Part shown: positions 47,363 through 51,949 of the stretch, one piece after another
Layout: the number at the start of each line of letters is the position of its first letter
Numbering within the stretch: the first letter of the stretch is position 1
From: Clavibacter nebraskensis NCPPB 2581
Lineage (GTDB): Bacteria; Actinomycetota; Actinomycetes; Actinomycetales; Microbacteriaceae
DNA: 64,000 nucleotides
Direction of reading: 5' to 3'
Assembly: GCF_000355695.1 (NCBI RefSeq)
Contig: NC_020891.1
Coordinates: forward strand, 1,550,001 to 1,614,000
Notes under the pieces: generated by a model
Databases searched by the model: none
Seen by the model: only the letters and a program-made list of their open reading frames with translations
What the model was told of the DNA's origin: nothing
Translations under genes and position numbers: made by a program

Positions 47363-49210
<1,848 letters not shown>

Positions 49211-49219
49211 CCCGACCCG

Positions 49220-49996
49220 TCAGCAGGAGCCGGACGGCTGCAGGGAGCCGGCGGCGATCCACAGATCGAAGGACAGCGCGAGGCCGCCGGGCTCCGCGAT
49301 GCCGGCGTAGCGGATCTCCGCGCTCCCGGGCACCGAGCAGTACCGGTCGCCCGGGAACGCGGCGACGATGCCCGGCGTCGGTCGGCCCGCCTCCGACCAC
49401 TCGTCGAAGGAGACGCGGTGGCTGTCGACCCCCCGATCCGGTCGTGCGATGACGGTCTCCAGCCAGCTGAGGCGCTCGTAGACGTACTCGCCACGCCGGT
49501 CGACGGGTGGGAAGCCGAGCGTCCTCCATTCGTGGAACGTCATCGTGTGCCAGACCGCGGAGTGCTGGTCCCAGCCGAACCGCGTCCGGACGAGGAGCTC
49601 GTCGGAGCCGGGGTGCTGCCAGATCTCCGACGCCTCGGGCAGGACTCCCCGGGACGGCGCGGGCGATCCCGCGCGTCGCCACTGGGCGGCATCCAGCGCC
49701 AGCCCGAAGTCGGTGATGCCCACGTGGACGTCGGTGTACACCGTGGTGTCCCACGGGAGGAGCCGGTACGCGACGGTCGCCGGCGTCGGGACGGGGGACC
49801 CGTCGGCCTGGTACCGCTCGGTCGTGGCGAAGGCGTAGCCACGGTCCGGGTAGCGCGCGGTGTAGACGAGCGCGTCGGAGAACGGCAACGAGTAGTACGG
49901 CCGTCCAGGAAGGGCGTCGGCCGGCGCGGGGAGCGAGACGGCTCCGCCTGCGACGAGCGCGGCGCCGAAGACGAGGGCGGTGATCGAGCGGTGCAT
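49220..49996 (-). CDS. Secreted five-repeat protein, copy 1
   Basis: A 258-residue protein with a signal peptide (to about residue 28, cleavage near ADALPG). I do not recognise the family. The mature part is five tandem units of about 42-50 residues. Each unit opens with a Tyr or Glu-rich strand (YYSLPFSDALVYT; YRLLPWDTTVYT; GSDELLVRT; YERLSWLETVIA; SAEIRYAG) and ends in a W-centred motif such as AQWRRAGSPAP, FHEWRTLGFPPV, FDEWSEAGRPTP and FDLWIAAGSLQP. The only two mature cysteines lie in unit 5 (RYC and the final C), suggesting one disulfide. It is a paralogue of the next gene upstream. GGGAAGG ribosome binding site. Confidence 0.75.
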   Translation of the reverse strand: MHRSITALVFGAALVAGGAVSLPAPADALPGRPYYSLPFSDALVYTARYPDRGYAFATTERYQADGSPVPTPATVAYRLLPWDTTVYTDVHVGITDFGLALDAAQWRRAGSPAPSRGVLPEASEIWQHPGSDELLVRTRFGWDQHSAVWHTMTFHEWRTLGFPPVDRRGEYVYERLSWLETVIARPDRGVDSHRVSFDEWSEAGRPTPGIVAAFPGDRYCSVPGSAEIRYAGIAEPGGLALSFDLWIAAGSLQPSGSC

Positions 49997-50163
49997 GAGG
50001 ACCTTCCCGGCTGCGGCATCGTCGCCGCGATTCCGACGACCTCCCGAGGAGATCGGAGTCCGCCCGTCGAGTCTCGAGGGCTGCGGTCGGATCTCCACCG
50101 TATGCCCCGGGCAGCGAGCTGGCGGCCCAGTCCGGTCACGGATCCGTCTCATCCCTGCCGCAC

Positions 50164-50207
50164 GCACGACGCGCCCCCTGCCTCGAGAGGAGGGGGGCGC
50201 GTCGTGC
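50164..50207 (-). terminator. Terminator between the two repeat-protein genes
   Basis: Arms 50164-50178 and 50193-50207 pair perfectly over 15 bases around a 14-base loop. It follows the stop of copy 2, so copy 1 probably has its own promoter in the remaining gap (49997-50163). Confidence 0.75.
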
Positions 50208-50220
50208 CGTGCGGACGGGC

Positions 50221-51000
50221 TCAGCAGGTGGCGGGCTTCGGCGATCCCGCGGCGACCCACTCGCCGAACGTCAGCGCCATGCCATCCGGAGCGGCCTGGC
50301 CGATGTAGCGGATCTCGTCCGCTCCGGCTGCCTGGCAGAACCTGTCGCCGTCGTAGGAGGCGACCACGGCGGGCGTGGGCCGGGCGAAGTAGTCCCACAC
50401 GTCGAACGGCACCGGGCCGGTCTCGCCCATGCTCGAGATGGGCCCGACGAGCGTCGGGTTCCACGAGAGCTTCGTGAAGATGCGCGGCGGGGTCTGATCG
50501 ACCGACGGGTAGCCGAGGTGCGCGTACTCGGCGAAGGTCAGCTGGTGGTAGCCCGCGTTGTCGTCTACCCAGGAGGATCCGCCGTCGACGACGAAGAGCT
50601 CGTCCGAGCCCTGGTACTGGAGGATCGTGGCCGCGGGGGTGAGCCGATCCGTGCGCGGTGCGGGGGACCCCACGCGCCGCCACTGGGCGCCGTCGATGTA
50701 GGTGGAGAAGGAGGCGGAGCCCGCCGCGGAGACGGCGTAGATCGTCGCGTCCCAGGTGAATCGTCGATAGTCCGTCGGAGCGGGGATCGGCTTGGGGAAG
50801 CCGGCCGAGCGCCACGACTCGAAGGACGCGGGCTCGACGTACGGGCGACCGTCGACCGCGGAGACCTCGAAGAGCGTCGAGTCGTAGGGCACCGAGTAGA
50901 ACGTGCCGCTGGCCGATGCGGCGGATGCGGGGGTCGCGACCGCGAGACCGCCGACGGCGAGGGTGCCGGCGACGGCGAGGGCGGTGAGGGAGCGGAGCAT
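50221..51000 (-). CDS. Secreted five-repeat protein, copy 2
   Basis: A 259-residue paralogue of copy 1. The signal peptide ends ATPASAASA. Five units again: FYSVPYDSTLFEV...FESWRSAGFPKP; FTWDATIYAV...AQWRRVGSPAP; GSDELFVVD...FAEYAHLGYPSV; LSWNPTLVG...FDVWDYFARPTP; ADEIRYIG...FGEWVAAGSPKP. Two cysteines in unit 5 (RFC and the final C) match copy 1. The alternation of a short strand and a conserved W-x3-G-x-P turn suggests a small propeller-like or solenoid surface fold. Function unknown; secreted and possibly wall- or host-facing. GGAAGG ribosome binding site. Confidence 0.78.
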   Translation of the reverse strand: MLRSLTALAVAGTLAVGGLAVATPASAASASGTFYSVPYDSTLFEVSAVDGRPYVEPASFESWRSAGFPKPIPAPTDYRRFTWDATIYAVSAAGSASFSTYIDGAQWRRVGSPAPRTDRLTPAATILQYQGSDELFVVDGGSSWVDDNAGYHQLTFAEYAHLGYPSVDQTPPRIFTKLSWNPTLVGPISSMGETGPVPFDVWDYFARPTPAVVASYDGDRFCQAAGADEIRYIGQAAPDGMALTFGEWVAAGSPKPATC

Positions 51001-51295: not shown

Positions 51296-51949
51296 ATGCG
51301 CCGCAGCACCTACACCGCGACCGCCGTCACGTACGGCTCCGTCGGCGGCACCCAGGCCGTCGACCTCATGACCTATCCGCCCGAGGGCTACCGTCCCGCC
51401 GAGGCGAGCGCCCGGCTCGGCAGCGGCGACGAGCGCTTCGAGCAGGCCGTCGCCCTCCTCATGACGTGGGGCGTGCAGCGCGGCAGCGGCATCGAGGTCA
51501 CGCGCATCGAGCAGGAGGTGCCGGACGACCCCGGCTACACCGGCCTCGAGTTCGACGAGGACGGGGTGCCCCAGGTGCCCGTCGACCGGCCGCGGGAGAC
51601 GCTGTACGGCGACGACGGCACCGCGTGGATCACGTCGGGCACGTCGGCCGTGCTGCGCATGCCCTTCGGTCCGTTCCACCCCGAAGCGCCCGTCCGCGTC
51701 GTGTACACCGTGCAGGAGACCGACCGCGTCGGCTTCGCGTACGGCACGGTGCACGGGCATCCGCTGAGCGGCGAGGAGGCGTTCCTCGTCTCCCGGGAGC
51801 CCGACGGCAGCGTCTGGCTCACCCTCCGTGTCTTCTCGCGACCGGCGTCGTGGCCGATGCGCCTGGCGAGCCCGGTGCTCCGGATCGTGCAGGGCGTCTT
51901 CATGCGCCGGTACCTGCGGTCGCTGCACCCGGCGGTCGCGTCCGCCTGA
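51296..51949 (+). CDS. DUF1990 family protein
   Basis: A 217-residue protein with the DUF1990 pattern: TYTATAVTYGSVGGT at the start, FEQAVALLMTWGVQRGSGIEV, RVVYTVQETDRVGFAYGTVHGHPLSGEEAFLV and a basic helical end. The central segment resembles a hot-dog or START-like cavity. Function unknown. Third-position G/C bias supports coding. Confidence 0.85.
   Translation: MRRSTYTATAVTYGSVGGTQAVDLMTYPPEGYRPAEASARLGSGDERFEQAVALLMTWGVQRGSGIEVTRIEQEVPDDPGYTGLEFDEDGVPQVPVDRPRETLYGDDGTAWITSGTSAVLRMPFGPFHPEAPVRVVYTVQETDRVGFAYGTVHGHPLSGEEAFLVSREPDGSVWLTLRVFSRPASWPMRLASPVLRIVQGVFMRRYLRSLHPAVASA

Follow-up and report, generated by a model that had tools for sequence, protein, structure and literature searches.

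Non-covalent surface-binding modules of Gram-positive bacteria include the SLH, CWB2, LysM, SH3b and choline-binding repeats. The module described here is reminiscent of them in being modular, secreted, repeated and joined to unrelated wall hydrolases and extracellular enzymes, and in occurring also in enzyme-free proteins. Unlike them, it is a five-unit block with units of 40-45 residues and a predicted beta-beta-beta-helix order, and it matches no Pfam or NCBIfam family, these families included. It resembles the known surface-binding repeat modules in its working but belongs to none in the libraries tested (Pfam, NCBIfam, PHROGs, PDB). Five-bladed propellers, such as tachylectin-2 (repeat of about 47 residues) and GH43/GH62, share with it five repeats of similar length; the module differs from them in its three strands plus helix per unit and in having no significant fold or sequence match. 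The nearest resemblance is presumably with DUF5648 (PF18885), which likewise occurs in exported proteins of bacteria as tandem beta units that are short and rich in aromatic residues. DUF5648 was rejected as the parent family: an hhalign comparison with a single DUF5648 protein from the same order gave a probability of 0.3% and E of 0.22, and no module member matches the DUF5648 model.

The window, a stretch of 64,000 nucleotides, comes from the genome of Clavibacter nebraskensis NCPPB 2581, which is one contig of 3,063,596 bases. Based on ORFs, pairwise identity and a unit HMM, it contains two genes for five-unit secreted proteins, namely gene A (50221..51000, minus strand), which encodes P0001 (259 aa plus stop), and gene C (49220..49996, minus strand), which encodes P0002 (258 aa plus stop). 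Both genes have an ATG start and an upstream GGAAGG ribosome-binding site. As the sequence-only reading had proposed, the N-termini of both products read as Sec-type signal peptides ending in ..ASA/ADA; that of P0001 comprises residues 1-28 (MLRSLTALAVAGTLAVGGLAVATPASAA; 50917..51000, minus strand). Sequence reading reveals no sortase anchor or membrane anchor in P0001 or P0002. The two proteins are 41% identical over their full length, and there is no third copy in the genome, even at E of 10.

A terminator-like, GC-rich stem-loop without a T run lies just 3' of gene A (50148..50224, minus strand). It is strong, with folding energy of -57.5 kcal/mol and z of -5.8. No stem-loop was found 3' of gene C, where the stop codon and that of the convergent lepA are 9 bp apart. 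Separate terminators had been claimed for the two genes, and only the one stem-loop after gene A is present; separate control by separate terminators is unsupported.

The five-unit organization was recovered from outside the genus. An HMM made of ten units of two modules, from other genera only, matches P0002 (all minus strand) at residues 29-71 (49784..49912), 80-115 (49652..49759), 128-167 (49496..49615), 175-208 (49373..49474) and 213-251 (49244..49360). The same HMM matches P0001 at residues 33-71, 74-116, 128-167 and 218-258, with a weak match at 172-185 (E of 0.8), while shuffled controls gave a match at E<1 in only 4 of 400 copies. Iterating the HMM brings out the full set of five units in P0001, with unit 4, weak in the first test, now clear. 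Specifically, the units of P0001 (all minus strand) are residues 32-71 (50788..50907), 75-116 (50653..50778), 124-168 (50497..50631), 173-211 (50368..50484) and 218-257 (50230..50349), the last of which holds C222. The units of both proteins are about 40-45 residues long.

Across 263 units, the unit end has the consensus T-[YF]-x-[EQ]-W-x3-G-x-P-x-P, with W conserved in 89%, G in 85% and the two P in 90% and 76%. This is close to the aromatic-x-x-W/Y-x3-G-x-P-x-P turn read from the two proteins. The proposed unit start, D/E-x-x-hydrophobic-Y, holds only approximately, and the consensus found is [DTE]-[ILV]-[YF]. The matching cysteines noticed in both proteins are borne out as well: C222 and C259 of P0001 have aligned positions in P0002 and are invariant in 28 stand-alone relatives. 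C222 in unit 5 presumably pairs with C259 at the C-terminus. Of the 39 modules at the very end of their protein, 30 have the pair; of the 11 followed by a C-terminal extension, none has it. This distribution fits a tail staple whose place is taken by the extension where one is present.

P0001 and P0002 have no family or structure match in Pfam, NCBIfam or PDB sequences. Neither the two proteins nor 28 diverse modules reach a curated cut-off of Pfam or NCBIfam, and the 28 modules give isolated weak matches only, each confined to one member. The sole sub-threshold Pfam match of the pair is that of P0001 to the virulence protein Nec1 (PF10379), with E of 0.18 and a score of 11.7 bits, the cut-off being 27; it covers the signal-peptide region only and was rejected as chance. 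The module profile finds no solved structure, and PHROGs does not recognise the module. Consistent with the suggestion of an unrecognised family, sequence comparison indicates that the five-unit module is uncatalogued in the four libraries tested (Pfam, NCBIfam, PHROGs, PDB). A viral or plasmid origin was dismissed, as there are no relatives on viral contigs and no plasmid matches. The phage matches of one relative are mostly within its C-terminal non-module domain, and an anti-phage defence library has no match to the module.

The module extends well beyond the tandem pair of secreted proteins. The pair is present as first described, but its five-unit block is a domain found across Actinomycetes. 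Searches by module profile and by sequence, which amount to 1,993 genome look-ups with many genomes repeated, detect it in 13 of 18 Clavibacter species, 16 of 400 genomes of the family sample (8 of 85 genera), 9 of 396 of the order sample, 3 of 395 of the class sample and 2 of 297 of the phylum sample, counts that include the window's own genome. The frequency drops with taxonomic distance from Clavibacter. Related Actinomycetes carry the block on secreted enzymes of roughly a dozen types. Partners confirmed by Pfam are CAP, Peptidase_M23, GH71 and Excalibur in a first set, polysaccharide deacetylase, S8, SpoIID, CAP, reprolysin-like, 5'-nucleotidase, Exo_endo_phos and YkuD in a second, and VanY, GmrSD_C and TIG in a third; GH6, beside a divergent form of the module, was confirmed in the same way. 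Many secreted Actinomycetes enzymes are thus half annotated, the module being absent from the tested family libraries. In two proteins (L045:2889-3803, minus strand; L044:3076-3984, plus strand) the module is followed by a domain of about 70 residues (GDSGVLxV..GTYRS..CYWxRLSGF), which has no Pfam match and resembles hypothetical mycobacteriophage proteins.

The substrates of the partners differ and include peptidoglycan, protein, nucleic acids, nucleotides, cellulose and alpha-1,3-glucan. The module is common to unrelated extracellular enzymes of one clade, as a surface-binding module should be. What the partners have in common is most simply where they act, at the producing cell, and not what they act on, so we prefer envelope retention to the other functional readings. 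Specifically, we lean, on balance, towards P0001 and P0002 being stand-alone secreted copies of a module that binds the outer envelope of the producing cell non-covalently. The most likely target would be a wall glycan or glycopolymer; both this target and the function are what we infer for the module. Its repeated units would bind one repeating polymer weakly at several sites. Where fused to an enzyme, the module would retain that enzyme on the cell surface, and in Clavibacter the stand-alone module would coat the surface. A role as envelope anchor, if correct, would explain why these enzymes remain at the cell and provide a handle on the surfaces of Gram-positive plant pathogens, about which little is known.

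Envelope retention ranks above targeting of external polymers, such as plant cell wall or exopolysaccharide. In the latter reading the module is a carbohydrate-binding module that guides enzymes, and the Clavibacter copies are lectins directed toward the plant or a biofilm matrix. The GH6, GH71 and nuclease partners could equally suit a module for an external polymer and count against our preferred explanation; the GH6 and GH71 fusions, the aromatic-rich repeated unit and the origin of the window from a plant-associated genus all fit the external target. Most partners, however, are peptidoglycan enzymes, proteases, nucleases and CAP, which have no external polymer in common, and GH6 adjoins the most divergent form of the module, which has about four units and gives weak matches only. 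We consider an external target unlikely, though the best placed of the competing roles. Other genera of the family have this strongly diverged form of about four units N-terminal to GH6 cellulases (L120:622-2241, minus strand; L121:397-2319, minus strand).

The fold of the module was predicted with AlphaFold. A mature relative, modelled with seven sequences, gave a mean pLDDT of 82 and pTM of 0.65, with strand-strand-strand-helix elements recurring across units; P0001 with its signal peptide and the same seven sequences gave a poor model, with pLDDT of 59. Coevolution within the unit, a method independent of AlphaFold, supports antiparallel pairing of strands b and c (i+j=38), with a signal that exceeds all 40 column-shuffled nulls, and pairing of strands a and b more weakly. 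We infer from these models that each unit combines an antiparallel sheet of three strands with a short helix. Exactly five units are present in 50 of 58 non-redundant modules; the other modules, some of which are truncated or carry a frameshift, have 3, 4, 6 or 7. Such constancy suggests that the arrangement is closed and not an open solenoid, and a closed five-ring leaves two proteins, with six and seven units, unexplained. Modules of six and seven units adjoin CAP and metalloprotease domains (L073:1288-2079, plus strand; L076:1186-2097, plus strand). In stand-alone forms, the compact ring of five units would be stapled by the cysteine pair between unit 5 and the C-terminus.

The sequence-only reading had suggested a five-bladed propeller. 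As a rival for the fold alone, this would be an enzyme or lectin with a five-bladed beta-propeller, from a known superfamily but invisible to sequence searches; it concerns fold and the functional readings concern role, so the confidences are not mutually exclusive. The prevalence of five units fits a propeller, and some five-bladed and other propellers are among the top fold matches, all of which are insignificant. A fold search of the PDB and viral models returned nothing at E<0.05, and every match has TM<0.2. Moreover, a propeller blade has four strands, where the unit is predicted to have three and a helix. No acidic residue is conserved across 28 modules, in which only W, P, G, S and L occupy columns that are invariant or nearly so. 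This absence argues against an enzyme and does not fit a propeller-type glycoside hydrolase, which has conserved catalytic acids. A propeller is thus not confirmed and has no support from the fold search, and a cryptic member of a known propeller superfamily is, in our judgement, quite unlikely. The AlphaFold model has no PDB match and so points to no binding fold.

The two genes occupy a slot that is variable among Clavibacter species. Its left flank (47363..49210, plus strand), which we take to be lepA (elongation factor 4), is convergent with gene C and 98-99% identical in other species. Its right flank (51296..51949, plus strand), presumably of the DUF1990 family, is 92-100% identical in other species. 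Thus the flanks are 92-100% identical between species, and the slot content varies from 0 to 5 copies. In twelve species, the number of intact copies is 5, 4, 4, 4, 3, 3, 3, 3, 2, 2, 2 and 1. The slot of G772, the closest relative (gene A 95% identical), contains one intact and one frameshifted copy, the latter a B-type copy split by the frameshift (L091:6503-7278, plus strand). In a tree, the copies form paralogues A, B and C, with C sister to B, and the window keeps A and C. The two genes accordingly arose by duplication, as proposed, but not as a fresh pair: from the tree, they are the A and C survivors of an older A-B-C array that lost B.

The array is absent in 5 of 18 Clavibacter species. 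Three of these (G330, G776 and G109) have complete slots with zero copies and carry instead an exported Ig-like protein, whose tail of LPVTG or LPMTG, hydrophobic stretch and basic residues is of the sortase type. In G773, the contig ends inside this same protein, beside lepA. The slot of G260 is only 54 bp. The Ig-like proteins lie at L086:4443-5537 and L089:4154-5794 (minus strand) and at L088:4492-6219 and L085:1-904 (plus strand). A genome-wide search for the LPxTG protein is positive only in these four array-free species, with trivial matches (E above 1e-5) elsewhere; the array (13 species) and the LPxTG protein (4 species) therefore do not co-occur in any genome. Because the species are related, the alternation may reflect few events.

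Together with the domain fusions, this alternation with a sortase-type wall protein indirectly supports the earlier idea that the proteins could act at the surface. The variable module copies of Clavibacter would sit at a locus that in other species holds a wall-anchored protein, and, if the module is an envelope anchor, the slot between lepA and the DUF1990-like gene would serve as a locus of surface variation. A more general proposal is that the module has a new fold, in which five beta-beta-beta-helix units form a ring, and that it serves Actinomycetes at large as an envelope (wall glycopolymer) binder and in Clavibacter is stand-alone, fast-diversifying and alternating with sortase-anchored proteins. 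We put this forward tentatively, as possible rather than probable.

The copies have dN/dS of 0.24-0.62, compared with 0.04-0.17 for flanking genes. This fast evolution also fits host-directed proteins and in that respect counts against envelope binding. The stand-alone proteins being secreted host-directed factors that diversified by copy birth and death, with the surface module as ancestry only, agrees with the 0-5 copies per species, the frameshifted copy and the protein change faster than in the flanks, but is improbable, given that the array is missing in 5 of 18 species, that dN/dS is below 1, that surface proteins under phage or immune pressure would be expected to show this pattern too, and that the main texts of Clavibacter secretome proteomics, in which the locus cannot be identified, hold no in planta evidence. 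The GC palindrome after gene A has copies of 85-94% similarity elsewhere in the slots of relatives (L091, L094), and resembles a small mobile or terminator-like repeat.
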